NCBI GenBank assembly: GCA_029262005.1
Contig: JAJDAG010000074.1
Coordinates: 1-36,505, forward strand
DNA from: Candidatus Zhuqueibacterota bacterium
Lineage (GTDB): Bacteria; Zhuqueibacterota; Zhuqueibacteria; Oceanimicrobiales; Oceanimicrobiaceae
Length of the DNA stretch: 36,505 bases
Direction of reading: 5' to 3'
Below are positions 8,532 to 34,264 of the stretch, piece after piece. The first letter of the stretch is position 1. Each line of letters opens with the position of its first letter. The notes below the pieces were generated by a model that did not search any database, was not told the origin of the DNA, and saw nothing but the letters and a program-made list of their open reading frames with translations. Both the position numbers and the translations under genes were made by a program.

Positions 8532-10442
8532 ATGAAAGAATTTTTACCCAAGATAAATTCACCTGCTGATCTGAATAAGCTTTCTGTCGAAGAGCTGGGG
8601 CAGTTGTGTAACGAAATAAGAGAATATTTTGTTAATGTTGTGACCAGTGTTGGTGGACATTTTGCTTCAAGTCTTGGGGTGGTGGAATTGACTACCGCCC
8701 TACATTATGTTTATGATACACCCAATGATAAAATCGTTTGGGATGTCGGCCATCAAGGGTACGTACATAAAATACTAACCGGGCGTCGTGAAGAACTGAA
8801 GACCATTCGTCAATACAAAGGCATCAGTGGTTTTCTGAAAAGAACTGAAAGCAAATATGATGTGTTTGGTGCCGGCCATGCAAGTACATCTATTTCAGCA
8901 GCTCTGGGTTTCGCAGTGGCCCGCGACTTGAATGGAAAGGACAACAAAGTCATTGCGGTAATCGGCGATGGCGCGTTGACAGGTGGCTTGGCATATGAGG
9001 CGCTCAACAATGCGGGCAGTATGAACAAAGATATTTTGGTTGTCCTTAATGACAACCAGATGTCCATTTCCCCTAACGTTGGCGGCATCTCCCGGTATTT
9101 AACCGAAGTCACAACACACCCGCGTTACAATAAAATTAAGGATGAGATTTGGCGGCTCACCGAAAAGATGCCATTTGGCAAACGGCGATTGCGCAGATTT
9201 GTCCGAACGATAGAAGAAAGTTTGAAAAACCTCATCGTTCCAGGTATATTTTTTGAAGAATTGGGCTTTCGCTATTTTGGGCCAATCGATGGTCACGACT
9301 TACCCGAATTGGTTTTGACTCTCCGTAACCTGAGGGAAATCAAGGGGCCGAAAGTCTTGCATGTTTTGACCAAAAAAGGGAAGGGAGTAGACTATGCTGA
9401 GGAGGATTCGGTAAAATTTCATGCTGTATCACCGCCGGCGAATCAATCTGCAGGCGACAAAAAGGCTGTTCTTAAACCACCTTCGTATAATCAGGTTTTT
9501 ACAGATACGTTGATTGAGCTTGCATCCGAGAATAATCGCATTGTTGCTATTACCGCCGCCATGGCAGAAGGTACCGGACTTGTCAATTACCAGAAACAAA
9601 TTCCCAAGCGTTTCTTTGATGTTGGCATTGCCGAAGGGCATGGGGTAACTTACGCCGCCGGGCTTGCAGCAGAAAATTTCAGACCTTGCGTGGCAATTTA
9701 TTCGACATTTTTGCAGCGGGCCTATGATCACATTATTCATGATGTTTCGATTCAACACTTGCCGGTTGTATTCGCGCTCGACCGCGCCGGACTTTGCGGA
9801 GCAGATGGTCCGACACATCATGGCGCTTTTGATTTGTCTTATCTATGCACTGTGCCGGACATGATTGTGACTGCCCCAAAAGATGGGGATGAGCTTCGAA
9901 ATTTGCTCTACACGGCCTTTGCTCAGGAAACGAATTCATTTGCAGTTCGGTTTCCCAAGGACAGTTGCATAACATTAACAGAGGGACATGCGTTTTCCGA
10001 ACTCCCAATCGGTTCATGGGAAGTTTTACGTGCGGGGCAAGGAATCGTATTGCTGGCGGTGGGCAGCATGGTGGCCCCAGCGATGAATGCTGCTGATAAG
10101 TTAGAAAAATTGGGCCATGCTGTTGGGGTTGTAAATTGTAGATTCATAAAACCACTTGACCAACCGTTGCTGAATAAATTGGTCAAAAAGTATGAACATA
10201 TAGTGACCATTGAGGAGAATGTTTTAAGTGGCGGCTTTGGTAGTCAGGTTGGTCAATTCCTGACGCAAAGCAAGCTGAATGTAGGTTCTTTGTCGCAACT
10301 GGGTCTTCCTGATGGCTTTGTGGAGCATGGCTCACGTTCAATTTTGCTGGAGAATGTCGGATTGGCGCCTGATAAAATTAAAGGCACTTGTCTGGAAATA
10401 TTAGACGTAAACAATAAAGTGAAGTCAATTTCAATTAGTTAA
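8532..10442 (+). CDS. dxs: 1-deoxy-D-xylulose-5-phosphate synthase
   Basis: Dxs joins pyruvate and glyceraldehyde 3-phosphate to make 1-deoxyxylulose 5-phosphate, the first step of the methylerythritol phosphate route to isoprenoids. It needs thiamine diphosphate. The 636 residues show 'VWDVGHQGYVHKILTGR' and the ThDP/Mg motif 'GDGALTGGLAYEALNNAG...LNDNQMSIS'. They also show 'FGPIDGHDLPELV', 'FDVGIAEGHGVTYAAGLA' with the catalytic Glu, and 'DRAGLCGADGPTHHGAFDLSYL'. All three domains (N-terminal ThDP, pyrimidine-binding, C-terminal transketolase-like) are present, so it appears intact. It ends 10 bases before ccmE and probably shares a transcript with it. Confidence 0.97.
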   Translation: MKEFLPKINSPADLNKLSVEELGQLCNEIREYFVNVVTSVGGHFASSLGVVELTTALHYVYDTPNDKIVWDVGHQGYVHKILTGRREELKTIRQYKGISGFLKRTESKYDVFGAGHASTSISAALGFAVARDLNGKDNKVIAVIGDGALTGGLAYEALNNAGSMNKDILVVLNDNQMSISPNVGGISRYLTEVTTHPRYNKIKDEIWRLTEKMPFGKRRLRRFVRTIEESLKNLIVPGIFFEELGFRYFGPIDGHDLPELVLTLRNLREIKGPKVLHVLTKKGKGVDYAEEDSVKFHAVSPPANQSAGDKKAVLKPPSYNQVFTDTLIELASENNRIVAITAAMAEGTGLVNYQKQIPKRFFDVGIAEGHGVTYAAGLAAENFRPCVAIYSTFLQRAYDHIIHDVSIQHLPVVFALDRAGLCGADGPTHHGAFDLSYLCTVPDMIVTAPKDGDELRNLLYTAFAQETNSFAVRFPKDSCITLTEGHAFSELPIGSWEVLRAGQGIVLLAVGSMVAPAMNAADKLEKLGHAVGVVNCRFIKPLDQPLLNKLVKKYEHIVTIEENVLSGGFGSQVGQFLTQSKLNVGSLSQLGLPDGFVEHGSRSILLENVGLAPDKIKGTCLEILDVNNKVKSISIS

Positions 10443-13436: not shown

Positions 13437-13871
13437 ATGTTAAGAATTTCAAAAAAGTCCGAATACGGAATTATGGCGTTGAAGCATTTGCTGAATCAAC
13501 CTGCCGGTACGTTTGGCAGAGCAAAGGAAATCGCTGACATATACAGCATTCCATCTGAGGCACTTGCAAAAATATTACAAACGCTGGCTCGAAAAGGCAT
13601 CTTGAAGTCAATTCAGGGAGCGCGTGGTGGCTATGTGTTGGCCAAATCAGGCGACAACATCAAACTTTCTGAAATTATTGAGTGCATTGAAGGGCCGGTT
13701 GGGATTGTTGATTGCGTAACATCCGAGCCGTGCGGATGTGTACAAATTGACAATTGCACAATTAGTGATCCGTTCAGGGTGATTCAGGAGCAGTTTATGA
13801 TTTTTCTGTCAAGGATTTCGTTATTGGACATTAACAATGAAATGGAAATGCGGCAAGTAAGCTGGCAATAG
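13437..13871 (+). CDS. Rrf2-family transcriptional regulator with probable Fe-S cluster (IscR/SufR-like)
   Basis: The ATG at 13437 gives 144 residues, preceded by aggag at 13425-13429. The frame runs upstream to 13371, but that stretch is the promoter itself. The winged-helix domain is typical: 'LRISKKSEYGIMALKHL', then 'IADIYSIPSEALAKILQTL' and 'GILKSIQGARGGYVLA'. Four cysteines (93, 99, 101, 107) in 'DCVTSEPCGCVQIDNC' are placed where IscR-like proteins bind a [2Fe-2S] or [4Fe-4S] cluster. As the first gene of the SUF operon it probably represses the operon when its cluster is loaded, acting on the palindrome at 13400-13424. Whether its cluster behaviour is like IscR or like cyanobacterial SufR cannot be told here. 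Confidence 0.9.
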   Translation: MLRISKKSEYGIMALKHLLNQPAGTFGRAKEIADIYSIPSEALAKILQTLARKGILKSIQGARGGYVLAKSGDNIKLSEIIECIEGPVGIVDCVTSEPCGCVQIDNCTISDPFRVIQEQFMIFLSRISLLDINNEMEMRQVSWQ

Positions 13872-29155: not shown

Positions 29156-29630
29156 AACACCCTCCTTTGCTTTTTCCCACAACCCCAACGACTCATAAAT
29201 CGGCCCTGTGCCGCAAAGGCTTGCGGGTTTTGTACGGTGTGCACACTTAAGCCTGTTGTTTCATTAAATCCACAAATCTCAGCAAAGCAAAGACCGGATT
29301 AGAAAGAAAAGGTTGTATGGTATTTAAGGCTGATGTTTCGGGAAAGAACCCACCCCTGGCCCCTCCGGGGAGGGGAATTTCTCGGGGCTTTGCCCCTTTG
29401 GACTTATGAAGACGAAACCAGAATACGTGACACCTTAACCTTCATTCCGAATAACCCACAAAAGCAATCCCCTCCTCGGAGGGGCCAGGGGTGGGTACAA
29501 AAGGTGTCCACCTGGAAGCATATCACTGCCGTGGAGCACACACCAAACAATAGGAAACTGTCATTTCGAACCCGGTGTTATGTGCCGGTGTGAGAACTCC
29601 GTCGAAGAATGAATGCCGTTGTTCAAATCA
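29156..29630. repeat. 475-bp direct repeat, copy A
   Basis: This block matches 32575-33049 base for base at a constant offset of 3,419, without a gap in my hand alignment. I count roughly 22 differences, about 95% identity, with most in the last 60 bases. It contains the 149-bp inverted-repeat unit at 29348-29496 and the left end of a second unit (TGTCATTTCGAAC at 29559-29571). A frame at 29333-29593 is open, but nothing marks it as a gene. Confidence 0.9.
29348..29496. repeat. MITE-like element with 28-bp terminal inverted repeats, copy A
   Basis: The left arm (29348-29375, starting ACCCACCCCTGGCCCCTCC) is the inverted copy of the right arm (29469-29496, ending GGCCAGGGGTGGGT) with one mismatch in 28. 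The 93-base middle holds a small GGGGC/GCCCC hairpin and no gene. The second copy is at 32767-32915. Confidence 0.8.
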
Positions 29631-29647
29631 AATTAAAACAAAATTGG

Positions 29648-30160: not shown

Positions 30161-30289
30161 GTGTGCACGCTTAAGTGTGCGCCTGCTCCCATGGTTAAAA
30201 TCACCACTGCATTTTCTTTGCTGATAACCGTTCATGTGTAATGGGGATTTGTGGTTTTAACAAAAAGCGACACGCTGAAGCGTGCACAA
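30161..30289. repeat. Palindrome-flanked element, copy A
   Basis: GTGTGCACGCTTAAGTGTGC (30161-30180) faces CACGCTGAAGCGTGCACAAC (30270-30290) in inverted orientation; each arm is itself nearly palindromic. It includes the second copy of the 43-base direct repeat (30217-30259). The related unit is at 33173-33308. Confidence 0.6.
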
Positions 30290-30518
30290 CATATCTTTTT
30301 TGTTGCTTTGTGTGGGAAATGTTGCTATTATGATACACCTTGTCTCTCACGAACTCAATATTCAATAAGACATGGAAAGGTCAATGAGAATATTTCCTGG
30401 TTTGTCCTAAAATACTGCAGTACATAGATTTTCTGTCGATCGCATGGATATTTTTCTTATAGAACAAATAGTTACAGTTAACGTGACATCTGGTAGTTTT
30501 TAAACTATGTGAGGAAAA
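30290..30518 (+). repeat. Promoter-and-leader module, copy A
   Basis: About 200 bases here resemble 33309-33502 closely (roughly 75% by eye), and both copies run up to the ribosome binding site of a different gene. Conserved parts are the promoter, a 'TCTCACG...TCAATATTCAA' stretch and 'GGAAA.GTCAATGAGAATATT'. A short frame beginning ATG at 30372 encodes 12 residues (MERSMRIFPGLS) before TAA. Confidence 0.7.
30303..30331 (+). promoter_or_regulatory. Promoter in module copy A
   Basis: TTGCTT (30303-30308) and TATTAT (30326-30331) are 17 bases apart. The same pair at the same spacing occurs in module copy B, which supports both. Confidence 0.65.
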
Positions 30519-30743
30519 ATGAATTCAAAACAACGAATAACTTTGATAATTGGTTGCTGCGCTCTGGCTTTTGCTCTGCACACCACTCCACGTTACCAAG
30601 TTTACAAGGATATGAGACTAAAAGGTGGAGAAGTCACTAACTTTGCAAATCGTTATGATTTTGAAGTGGCCGTAATAAGAATGCTGATCGTCGGTGGGTT
30701 GACTGTTGCTGGCTACTTATATTTTGCTAAGAAAACAGACTAA
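30519..30743 (+). CDS. Small membrane protein of unknown function
   Basis: The 74-residue protein has two likely membrane helices, at about 7-22 ('ITLIIGCCALAFAL') and 50-68 ('VAVIRMLIVGGLTVAGYLYF'). A charged loop between them contains 'RYQVYKDMRLKGGEVTNFAN'. GAGGA at 30511-30515 precedes the ATG. It is the first gene after the promoter-and-leader module and lies 51 bases before the P-loop gene. I recognise no family. With a P-loop gene behind it, it could be part of a small accessory unit, but that is speculative. Confidence 0.6.
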   Translation: MNSKQRITLIIGCCALAFALHTTPRYQVYKDMRLKGGEVTNFANRYDFEVAVIRMLIVGGLTVAGYLYFAKKTD

Positions 30744-31485: not shown

Positions 31486-31606
31486 CTGGCCAGCGCAGTG
31501 GCAGCAAACACTGGAGCGCCGCCGGACATCCTGTGCAGGTATAAGAGTTGCTCGCCCATAGGAAATTAGCATTGTCTTAGAAGAACAGGGTTTGTATATT
31601 ATTGAT

Positions 31607-31957
31607 ATGGTCAATGAGAATAAAATAAAAAACGTTGCAAGAAACATGGCCATTGCCGCTAATGCAGAACGCGTCATTTTATTCGGCTCTTATGCACGTG
31701 GCGATGCCACGGAACAAAGCGACGTGGATCTCATGATTATCGCGCAAAGTGATTTGCCTCGGTTTAAAAGAAGTCGGGAATTGTATAAACTTCTAAGACC
31801 TCACCCCTTTGCTATGGATATTATTGTTTATACTCCTCAGGAAATCGAAAAGGGGAGAAAAACAAAGGTATCATTTGTATCAACCGTTTTGAAAGAAGGC
31901 AAGACAGTTTATGTCAGAAGAAATCGAAGTCAGCAAGCAATGGCTAGCGAAAGCTAA
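31607..31957 (+). CDS. MNT-type nucleotidyltransferase, antitoxin of a HEPN/MNT pair
   Basis: The 116-residue protein is a minimal nucleotidyltransferase. The motif Gly27-Ser28 ... Asp39-Val-Asp41 fits GSx10DxD exactly ('GSYARGDATEQSDVDLMII'). A third acidic residue is likely Asp in 'AMDIIVY'. In known MntA/HepT pairs the enzyme attaches AMP units to a tyrosine of the HEPN toxin and silences it. The gene overlaps the HEPN gene by 47 bases, the usual arrangement. The frame extends to a TTG at 31592, but the 'aacaggg' there is too close to serve it; ATG 31607 is the choice, with some doubt. Confidence 0.88.
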   Translation: MVNENKIKNVARNMAIAANAERVILFGSYARGDATEQSDVDLMIIAQSDLPRFKRSRELYKLLRPHPFAMDIIVYTPQEIEKGRKTKVSFVSTVLKEGKTVYVRRNRSQQAMASES

Positions 31958-32330
31958 AAATGACCTGCTTAATGCCGACAACAATCTAAAGGCGGAAGAA
32001 ATTCCTTTTGATACGGTTTGCTTCCATTGTCAGCAGGCCGCGGAAAAGCTTCTCAAGGCATACCTGGTTGCCAATAGCGACTCATATCCGACTTCACATG
32101 ACCTTGTCCTTATTCTTGAAAAAATTCTTCCCCTGAATGCCGGTGCTGAAGTGCTGCGTGACGATCTTGCACTTCTGATGCCGTATGCTGTTGAAATTCG
32201 CTATCCAGACGATTGGTTTATGCCAACAGCCGGAGATGCAAAAGAAGCGAGAGAGGCTGTATCACGTGTTTTGTCATGGCTGCAAACGGCTATGCCGGAA
32301 GTTTTTGAAACACCCCCCACCGCAAAGTGA
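31911..32330 (+). CDS. HEPN-domain protein, partner of the MNT nucleotidyltransferase
   Basis: The 139-residue helical protein fits the HEPN family (PF05168): 'WLAKAKNDLLNAD', 'FDTVCFHCQQAAEKLLKAYL', 'SHDLVLIL' and 'YAVEIRYPDDWFMPT'. No Arg-x(4-6)-His ribonuclease motif is present. The 'YxxxxRYPD' segment near residues 94-104 is the hallmark of a subgroup that pairs with MNT proteins and lacks that motif. It may therefore not be an RNase, or may act with its partner in another way. The Tyr of that segment is a possible AMPylation site. The start lies inside the MNT gene, so the two are co-translated. Confidence 0.88.
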   Translation: MSEEIEVSKQWLAKAKNDLLNADNNLKAEEIPFDTVCFHCQQAAEKLLKAYLVANSDSYPTSHDLVLILEKILPLNAGAEVLRDDLALLMPYAVEIRYPDDWFMPTAGDAKEAREAVSRVLSWLQTAMPEVFETPPTAK

Positions 32331-32574: not shown

Positions 32575-33049
32575 AACATCCTCCTTTGCTTTTTCCCATA
32601 ATCCCAACGACTCATAAACCGGCCCTCTGCCGCAAAGACTTGCGGGCTTTGTACGGTGTGCACGCTTAAGCCTGTTGTTTCATTAAATCCACAAATCTCA
32701 GCAAAGCAAAGACCGGATTAGAAAGAAAAGGTTGTGTGGTATTTAAGGCTGATGTTTCGGGAAAGAACCCACCCCTGACCCCTCCGGGGAGGGGAATTTC
32801 TCGGGGCTTTGCCCCTTTGGACTTATGAAGACGAAACCAGAATACGTGACACCTTAATCTTCATTCCGAATAACCCACAAAAGCAATCCCCTCCTCGGAG
32901 GGGCCAGGGGTGTGTACAAAACGTGTCCACCTGGAAGCATATCACTGCCGTGGAGCACACACCAAACAATAGGAAACTGTCATTTCGAACCCGGCGCTCT
33001 TTGCCGGTGTGAGAAATCTTTCGAAGAATGAATGCCGCTGTTCAAACCA
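32575..33049. repeat. 475-bp direct repeat, copy B
   Basis: This is the second copy of the block at 29156-29630, in the same orientation. After it, copy B continues into a complete TGTCATT-ended unit (32978-33126), whereas copy A is cut off there. No gene is supported inside it. Confidence 0.9.
32767..32915. repeat. MITE-like element with 28-bp terminal inverted repeats, copy B
   Basis: Same unit as 29348-29496. Its inverted ends carry one extra change on each side relative to copy A (gac for ggc on the left, gtgtgt for gtgggt on the right), so pairing of the arms has weakened. Confidence 0.78.
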
Positions 33050-33126
33050 AAACATAATTGCAGAAACTCCACTCATGGGCCTTGACGGATTCCTCCGCCG
33101 CTGAGAAAGGCGCCGTTCGGAATGAC
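32978..33126. repeat. MITE-like element with TGTCATT ends, complete copy
   Basis: TGTCATTTCGAAC (32978-32990) faces GTTCGGAATGAC (33115-33126). Inner parts 'gagaaatct' and 'gattcctccg' also resemble the unit at 29968-30117 read on the other strand. The left 70 bases overlap the end of the 475-bp repeat. Confidence 0.6.
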
Positions 33127-33172: not shown

Positions 33173-33308
33173 GTACGTAGTGCACGCTTGAGCGTGCCCC
33201 TGCACCGATGGTGCAACATAGACTGAAATCCGTTTAAAACCCGGCCTCATTGTGCTGCACAGATTTGTTCTTTGAATGAAAAGGCACGCTGAAGCGTGCA
33301 CTACATAC
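33173..33308. repeat. Palindrome-flanked element, copy B
   Basis: The 26-base left arm (33173-33198, containing GTGCACGCTTGAGCGTGCC) matches the inverted right arm (33283-33308, containing GGCACGCTGAAGCGTGCAC) at 24 of 26 positions. Each arm can also fold alone. The 84-base middle has no gene. The module with the promoter starts directly after the right arm. Confidence 0.72.
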
Positions 33309-33502
33309 GTCTTTCTTGTTGCTTTGTAAGCGAAATGTTGCTATAATAATACACGCACTCTCTCACGTATCAATATTCAAACAGGACATATGGAAACGTC
33401 AATGAGAATATTCCTTGGTTTATCTCAAAATATAGCTATACAGAGACAAATGATCACATGGGTATTTTTCATGAGTTTTCATATAGTTCGTGTAGGAAAT
33501 AG
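33309..33502 (+). repeat. Promoter-and-leader module, copy B
   Basis: This is the counterpart of 30290-30518. It begins after the palindromic arm and ends at the start codon of the next gene. The leader of about 150 bases is conserved beyond the promoter itself, which suggests a role as a 5' untranslated region or leader peptide, or a recent duplication. Confidence 0.7.
33319..33347 (+). promoter_or_regulatory. Promoter in module copy B
   Basis: TTGCTT (33319-33324) and a perfect TATAAT (33342-33347) are 17 bases apart, the same layout as in copy A. Transcription should start near 33354, leaving a leader of about 149 bases before the gene. Confidence 0.75.
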
Positions 33503-33506
33503 ATGA
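33390..33506 (+). CDS. Possible 38-residue leader peptide
   Basis: An ATG at 33390, with AGGA three bases before it, opens a 38-codon frame (METSMRIFLGLSQN...). Its TGA stop overlaps the ATG of the next gene as ATGA, the arrangement of translationally coupled genes. In module copy A the first 12 residues are similar (MERSMRIFPGLS), then a TAA ends the frame. Substitutions between the copies are a mix of silent and changing ones, so selection for a peptide is not shown. It may be a chance frame in a conserved leader. Confidence 0.3.
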   Translation: METSMRIFLGLSQNIAIQRQMITWVFFMSFHIVRVGNR

Positions 33507-34264
33507 GTACATCGCGAAACATCTTGCATTTGCTTGGGGGACACGAGAAAACTTTCTCCCAGAGTTTTACGTTCTACCTTGATGCTATAGATGAGGTCAT
33601 GACTCTTCAGGGTCAAATTGGACTTGACGCCGACAAGATGATAGCTTTACCCGAACATGACCAAGCCCTTATCAAGACCTACGTATTCCTCGTGGAGTCT
33701 GGCAATACGACATGGGCGGCTGCCCTGCGTCTGTTGTCTTCTGGTTTTGCTGCGGATTCGTACGGATTGATTCGTATACTCTACGAGACTTCAGCCCTTC
33801 TTCACTATGGTAACTCATCCCCGCCTGAGACGAGAACTGAACTGTACAATGCAATGTTCAAATCAAGGATTCACGAGAGGGAACACCGTAAGAATGAGTG
33901 GAATTTTACCCAGATGTGTATTTGTTCCTTTGAAAAAGACAAGCCAGAACTTGCGACTGTTCGTCGGGAACTCAATAATTTTGGTGGACACATATCTCGA
34001 GCGAAGATCCTGATGGGCAACCTCACTATCACCGAAAATGTCTCTGCATCTAGTGTTTTCACTCCAAACTGGCGTGACAATAGGTACTTGGCCGGTCTTG
34101 ACTTCCTCTACTCATTGAACGCACTTATAATTGAAGAGTACGCAATAATGCAAAGGTCCTATGGTGGCCTGCCAGCAGGGACTCAGGAACAACTCACCAG
34201 GTTGACCAAAGCCTTCATATCGTCAGTGCGACCGAAGCTTCAAGCAATGATGAAAACGAGTTGA
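33503..34264 (+). CDS. Helical protein of unknown function
   Basis: I do not recognise this 253-residue protein with certainty. It looks almost fully helical and cytoplasmic. 'WAAALRLLSSGFAADSYGLI' followed by 'RILYETSALLHYG' is a pattern seen in uncharacterised families such as DUF5677, where an Arg-Glu or Tyr-Glu pair follows a helix of 'llrsGf..eAl.l.R'. 'RIHEREH' in the middle has an Arg and His six residues apart, loosely like a HEPN RNase motif; I give this little weight. AGGA (33494-33497) precedes the ATG, and the promoter-and-leader module lies directly upstream. Its stop codon is part of the next inverted repeat. Confidence 0.7.
   Translation: MSTSRNILHLLGGHEKTFSQSFTFYLDAIDEVMTLQGQIGLDADKMIALPEHDQALIKTYVFLVESGNTTWAAALRLLSSGFAADSYGLIRILYETSALLHYGNSSPPETRTELYNAMFKSRIHEREHRKNEWNFTQMCICSFEKDKPELATVRRELNNFGGHISRAKILMGNLTITENVSASSVFTPNWRDNRYLAGLDFLYSLNALIIEEYAIMQRSYGGLPAGTQEQLTRLTKAFISSVRPKLQAMMKTS

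Follow-up and report, generated by a model that had tools for sequence, protein, structure and literature searches.

Among the systems described so far, the closest to the DNA considered here is the attI1 site of class 1 integrons with its cassette promoter (Pc). This 65-bp site comprises L, R and two direct repeats, and its Pc lies 223-252 bp from the core (PMC8876359, PMC12901181). In general, attI sites are described as poorly known and as undetected outside class 1 integrons (PMC9024848), and also as one per integron and as less conserved than attC (PMC3607928). Incomplete integrons fall into two IntegronFinder classes, CALIN, where attC occurs without intI, and In0, where intI occurs without attC (PMC9024848), whereas the Delta-attI gene cassettes of mobile integrons carry a partial attI in place of attC (PMC12901181). 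There is also a precedent for misreading such DNA: the leader preceding aminoglycoside resistance genes, which had been proposed as a riboswitch, is attI1, and experiments saw no such regulation (PMC9410878).

The two modules analysed here, A and B, belong to a family of sites that shares with attI1 and Pc the location upstream of intI, a GTTRRRY-like core as the presumed point of cassette insertion, the promoter reading into the first cassette and the short frames that may cross the core (PMC8876359, PMC12901181). In contrast to attI1, the family has about 120 bp of ATGGAAAA-box palindromes, its Pc, which overlaps the start of intI, is separated from the core by about 140-155 bp, and many of its copies have no intI. 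Like CALIN and In0, the orphan copies are integrons made incomplete by the loss of a part (PMC9024848), but here Pc-attI is the part that is left; intI is missing, as is, at A and B, any recognisable attC. IntegronFinder does not report such a remnant, because attI goes undetected outside class 1 (PMC9024848). As in the Delta-attI cassettes, attI copies flank a gene (PMC12901181), although here they are nearly whole Pc-attI units, 2.7-3.3 kb apart in direct orientation. The parallel with the attI1 riboswitch is that a conserved attI leader before different genes was mistaken for a regulatory RNA; that proposal was refuted by experiment, while the present case is settled by comparison only.

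Both a conserved attI family and the presence of several orphan attI platforms per genome appear to be undescribed in the open-licence literature searched. The family is conserved enough across phyla to be detected with a covariance model, with the integrase present or absent, which provides a means of tallying integrons that have been lost, of spotting first-position cassettes that carry no attC, and of asking whether several sites can be served by one integrase. It also carries a warning, namely that a leader common to unrelated genes may be a recombination site.

Modules A and B and their surroundings

The window, that is, the whole stretch of 36,505 nucleotides analysed, contains module A at 30290-30518 and module B at 33309-33502. 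Their common sequence, which an earlier sequence-only reading had pointed out, is confirmed by BLASTN (128/166 identities, 77%, E=3e-32; E=9e-28 for the same match in a search of the host genome). The common block starts before the -35 box and stops at about 30456 in A and 33471 in B, some 15 bases ahead of a GTT core (at 30471 and 33486, respectively). The final bases ahead of the gene are unrelated in A and B, and so are the two genes to each other. The earlier description of modules that each end at the start codon of a different gene is thus right about the unrelated genes and wrong about the end, since the common part stops before the GTT core. The promoter boxes it had proposed (TTGCTT, 17 bases, TATWAT) were found in both modules as described (Table 1). 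Against composition shuffles the hexamer score is significant for neither promoter (p=0.57 for A, p=0.14 for B), and being insufficient it leaves the two calls to rest on conservation at that place.

Table 1. Features of modules A and B (positions in the window)
Feature	Position	Strand	Remark
Dispersed palindromic repeat end, CACGCTGAAGCGTGCAC	30271-30300	+	Adjoins promoter A, where intact relatives would begin intI
Module A cassette promoter, Pc-like	TTGCTT 30303-30308, 17-base spacer, TATTAT 30326-30331	+	Same place as in relatives
Module A, putative attI relic	30358-30477	+	R2 E=0.0033; match ends exactly at core GTTACAG, 30471-30477
Module A, 12-codon frame MERSMRIFPGLS	30372-30410	+	By-product of ATGGAAA box
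Gene first in line after attI A, coding for a small membrane-type protein (74 aa); probably once a cassette gene	30519-30743	+	Position after core
Same dispersed repeat, module B	33285-33314	+	Repeat also at other promoter copies
Module B cassette promoter, Pc-like	TTGCTT 33319-33324, 17-base spacer, TATAAT 33342-33347	+	Same place as in relatives
Module B, putative attI relic	33376-33492	+	R2 E=0.036; match ends exactly at core GTTCGTG, 33486-33492
Module B, 38-codon frame	33390-33506	+	Crosses core, ATGA overlap with gene start; position like ORF-11 of attI1
Gene first in line after attI B, coding for 253 aa, family unknown; probably once a cassette gene	33503-34264	+	

The surroundings of the modules show further repetition. 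The 477 bases ahead of A (29156-29632) and of B (32575-33051) are duplicated with 95% identity, compared with 77% for the modules, and parts of this region are dispersed repeats found across the host genome. Between A and B lie overlapping genes for an MNT nucleotidyltransferase and a HEPN protein (31592-32330), a probable toxin-antitoxin system.

The same site at intact integron integrases

A search with TIGR02249 showed that the host genome encodes an intact integron integrase (contig C106, 442 bits for a cut-off of 265) and that relatives have several more. The module layout is present upstream of the intI start at C106, and at the integrase of G007:C117 (457 bits) the module starts no more than about 50 bp away from the intI match, on the opposite strand. 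Two covariance models recognise this last module, R1 (E=1.7e-4), which contained A and B, and R2 (E=3e-15), which was made from 31 sites that include neither. Seven of these 31 are orphans of related genomes, among them G003, a genome of another genus in the host's family (hereafter the sister genus), and had first been found with R1. Searching GTDB genomes with the C106 and G007 integrases gave 48 loci in Desulfobacterota, Kiritimatiellota, Auribacterota, Planctomycetes and others. The module stands at the intI start codon, in divergent orientation, once in the host (C106), once in G007 and at about 30 loci in the four phyla just named.

Most intI starts share a common layout upstream, formed by a hairpin H1 (ACATGGAAAA...TTTTCCATGT), a palindrome H2 (ATGGAAAATTTTCCAT) and a palindrome H3 (ATAGATGGAAAATTTTCCATCTAT), after which comes ACTGTT or similar. 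The 22 of the 48 integrase loci taken into alignment A5 have sites of about 133 bases ending in GTT, nearly all of 131-135 when cut at identical marks, and the attI site proper is about 120 bp of palindromes of ATGGAAAA boxes with a GTTRRRY-like core at its end. Pairing holds in 76.7% of the cells of the alignment, compared with 39-55% when the arms are slid. On 11 held-out integrase loci, one of which (L083) is almost identical in sequence to a row used for training, R2 found the site upstream of intI on the opposite strand, mostly within about 400 bp of the start. It gave no match at integrases of other types from the same family of genomes (L047, L048, L050-L052, L056, L057, L063, L071). 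In the Kiritimatiellota sites (L089, L092, L093, L095) the common boxes are preceded by extra ones of ATGGAAAA type.

The position next to the intI start, the palindromic boxes, the GTTRRRY-like end and the variable sequence beyond it together identify the module as the primary site of an integron, attI, with its Pc. Since sequence conservation exceeds covariation, palindromes bound by a protein as DNA would fit better than an RNA structure, and IntI would presumably be the protein that binds the ATGGAAAA boxes.

In the window R2 matches A and B only, both with modest E-values. H1 is partly kept in them, the H2 palindrome is lost and H3 is worn, so the three palindromes are no longer complete, and of GTTRRRY both cores retain GTT alone. 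Neither A nor B has a recognisable intI remnant next to it, and the window holds no complete integron; a contig break does not account for this, as both modules lie more than 30 kb from the left contig end. Nor did a home-made scan find any convincing attC in the window, although it retrieves attC in G007:C117, L078, L103 and G003:C9 (this is its third version, two stricter ones having been blind even to intact integrons). Within the limits of that scan, the window lacks the two or more attC without intI that make a CALIN. With intI absent, the middle palindrome lost and no attC seen, A and B are relics. The sequence comparison shows their homology to the attI sites that adjoin intact integrases, as well as the position of the core, and by descent they are best described as orphan, worn attI sites with a cassette promoter. 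They probably no longer recombine, and their Pc is probably active.

Orphan copies and the genes behind them

The sequence-only reading had called for further copies, and these bear out its view that promoter and leader travel together: both are present, and most of the first genes start in sense 15-65 bases past the core. There are at least nine copies in the host genome, eight in the sister genus and others nearby. R1 detects copies in the host genome (five), G003 (eight) and G005 (three), and within the class R2 has matches in only 9 of 63 genomes. When the host genome and 60 relatives were searched at the DNA level, two strong matches and some weak ones came up, and inspection by eye revealed true diverged copies in host contigs C93, C157 and C183 and in G003; weak matches in G022, G028, G034 and G011 (L014, L016-L019) were set aside, as they resemble chance stretches and lie mostly inside open frames. 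Most G003 copies extend to ...CCATGGATCCAGATCGTTA(G) and diverge completely beyond it, and this constant 3' end at GTTAG ahead of different genes is what suggested an integron attI. Many orphan cores conform to GTTRRRY (GTTAGGC, GTTAGAT), the intI-linked sites also have GTTCGAC and GTTCTAC, and the sequence beyond the core is different in every copy.

Moreover, decayed N-termini of intI lie on the other strand beside orphan promoters, with 56 codons at G003:C51, 34-46 at G003:C59 and C61, 22-26 at host C42 and C93, and about 15 at G003:C18. Such remnants of 15-56 codons are retained at most orphans of the sister genus. At G003:C9 an attI (10201-10334) is followed by a methyltransferase gene and an OLD gene ending at 13459, and then by an attC (13491-13549), a canonical one that begins 31 bases past the stop of the OLD-type gene at this second site. 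G003:C9 is a cassette structure without intI.

In a tree of 22 modules the copies for the most part cluster with others of their own genome: one host group (support 0.99) comprises A, B, C93, C157 and C183, and a second (0.985) joins C65, C176 and C198 to the intI-linked C106 site. This grouping indicates that the orphans multiplied, or were repeatedly copied, within lineages. Four cases of pairs in direct orientation, 2.7-3.3 kb apart, are found (A/B, G003:C9, G003:C51 and G007:C269). Some host orphans, though not A and B, lie at contig ends, so that part of their context is missing.

The genes downstream of the copies have no common function. The gene after A has no match in Pfam or NCBIfam, and the gene after B none in Pfam, NCBIfam or PADLOC; searches of 194 related genomes and of plasmids gave no relative of the B gene either. 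Most likely, both are former cassettes still transcribed from the old Pc. Outside the window, PADLOC models match seven of the eight attI-downstream genes scanned, a share that does not estimate a frequency because the genes were picked partly for looking like defence genes. These candidate phage-defence first genes, at orphan and intI-linked attI alike (L149, L151, L153, L154, L147, L141 and L125:11249-13459), include SIR2 of pAgo type, ThsA-like SIR2, OLD/GajA type, AAA_13 (PDC-S06), DUF3800 (PDC-M04A), PLD-SNF2 and DUF4062 (PDC-S60). An exception to the usual arrangement is G007:C269 (L146), which has no cassette-like gene, an ammonium transporter lying 322 bases on and a second module 2.7 kb on.

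Origin of the modules and alternative explanations

Very probably, A and B descend from an integron platform, Pc followed by attI, from which intI was lost and whose downstream genes are likely former cassettes. The integrase of such an integron would insert circular gene cassettes at the GTT core of attI, and Pc would drive whichever cassette occupies the site. In the intact relatives intI starts nearby on the other strand, so that Pc overlaps its start, whereas at A and B intI is gone and a dispersed repeat lies against the promoter. The same upstream DNA thus precedes different genes because it is a stranded integron landing site. The idea of a portable unit holds insofar as a reusable promoter and leader, conserved past the promoter, precede unrelated genes; the translational control or coupled peptide once attached to it finds no support. 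It is rather unlikely that the better-kept orphans (host C65 and C176, and several in G003) are still substrates, one integrase in trans filling dispersed docks. If this were true, the integron would be distributed and not one array, each gene would stand behind its own promoter and often be anti-phage, and A and B would be worn docks.

The conservation of the leader had suggested some function, such as translational regulation; it is accounted for by the attI site, which stands at integrase start codons in several phyla. A conserved regulatory RNA, riboswitch-like or attenuator, that controls the translation of different genes seems highly improbable, even though H1-H3 would form hairpins in the transcript, the outer H1 pairs covary (pair 25-55: CG 16, UA 4, UG 3, GU 2) and, by eye, CTCTCAC looks able to base-pair with the Shine-Dalgarno of either gene. 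That Shine-Dalgarno lies beyond the core and differs in each copy, the hairpin arms are mostly invariant ATGGAAAA boxes, and H2 and H3 are loopless, as expected for protein sites in DNA. Moreover, the module adjoins integrase genes in several phyla, the genes downstream share no function, an Rfam search of 29.8-33.8 kb matched no family, folding the RNA of A, B and four relatives one sequence at a time gave no common fold beyond H1 in some, and the equivalent claim for attI1 failed by experiment (PMC9410878). A coupled leader peptide boosting translation of the first gene, like ORF-11 of attI1, is improbable as well. The short frames are as first described, including the terminal ATGA overlap of B, and at L042 the TAG that closes the corresponding frame belongs to the core GTTAG, which is also how ORF-11 ends (PMC8876359). 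However, they are not conserved elsewhere: the frame starts at the ATGGAAA box of the site, stops early in A, and in relatives ends after 5, 12, 13, 16, 24, 25, 26, 37 or 49 codons or has no ATG, while single-base indels shift it between the G003 copies. A length of 5-49 codons, or none, points to no common constraint. A possible analogy remains for B, whose frame could couple to its gene as ORF-11 does for the first cassette (PMC8876359). The reading of MRIF... as a fragment of a coding gene was dropped, as the frame is not kept.

That the module is instead the end of another mobile element, of REP/RAYT or MITE type, moving a promoter around the genome, would agree with the dispersed palindromic repeat found right next to the promoter in A, B and further copies, with the promoter-only copies in C164 and C42 and with the clustering of copies by genome. 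It is nonetheless very improbable, since the 3' boundary is always the core, whereas the left boundary falls at varying points within intI, the repeat is absent from the G003 copies inspected, and the same site stands at intact integrases in other phyla. For a module that originated as attI, the repeat may have helped copying in the host genome without being its source.

Two host copies show other rearrangements. In C157 (L026 and L023, G000:C157:5321-5730) about 300 bp lie between a promoter copy and its attI. This segment has inverted ends (CGTGAGTTCGA...) and is flanked on either side by TAATATA, suggestive of a small mobile element that inserted into the -10 region. In C93 (L003) a leader copy that has lost the middle of H1 precedes a decayed frame that, by eye, reads like the C-terminus of a REP-associated transposase.
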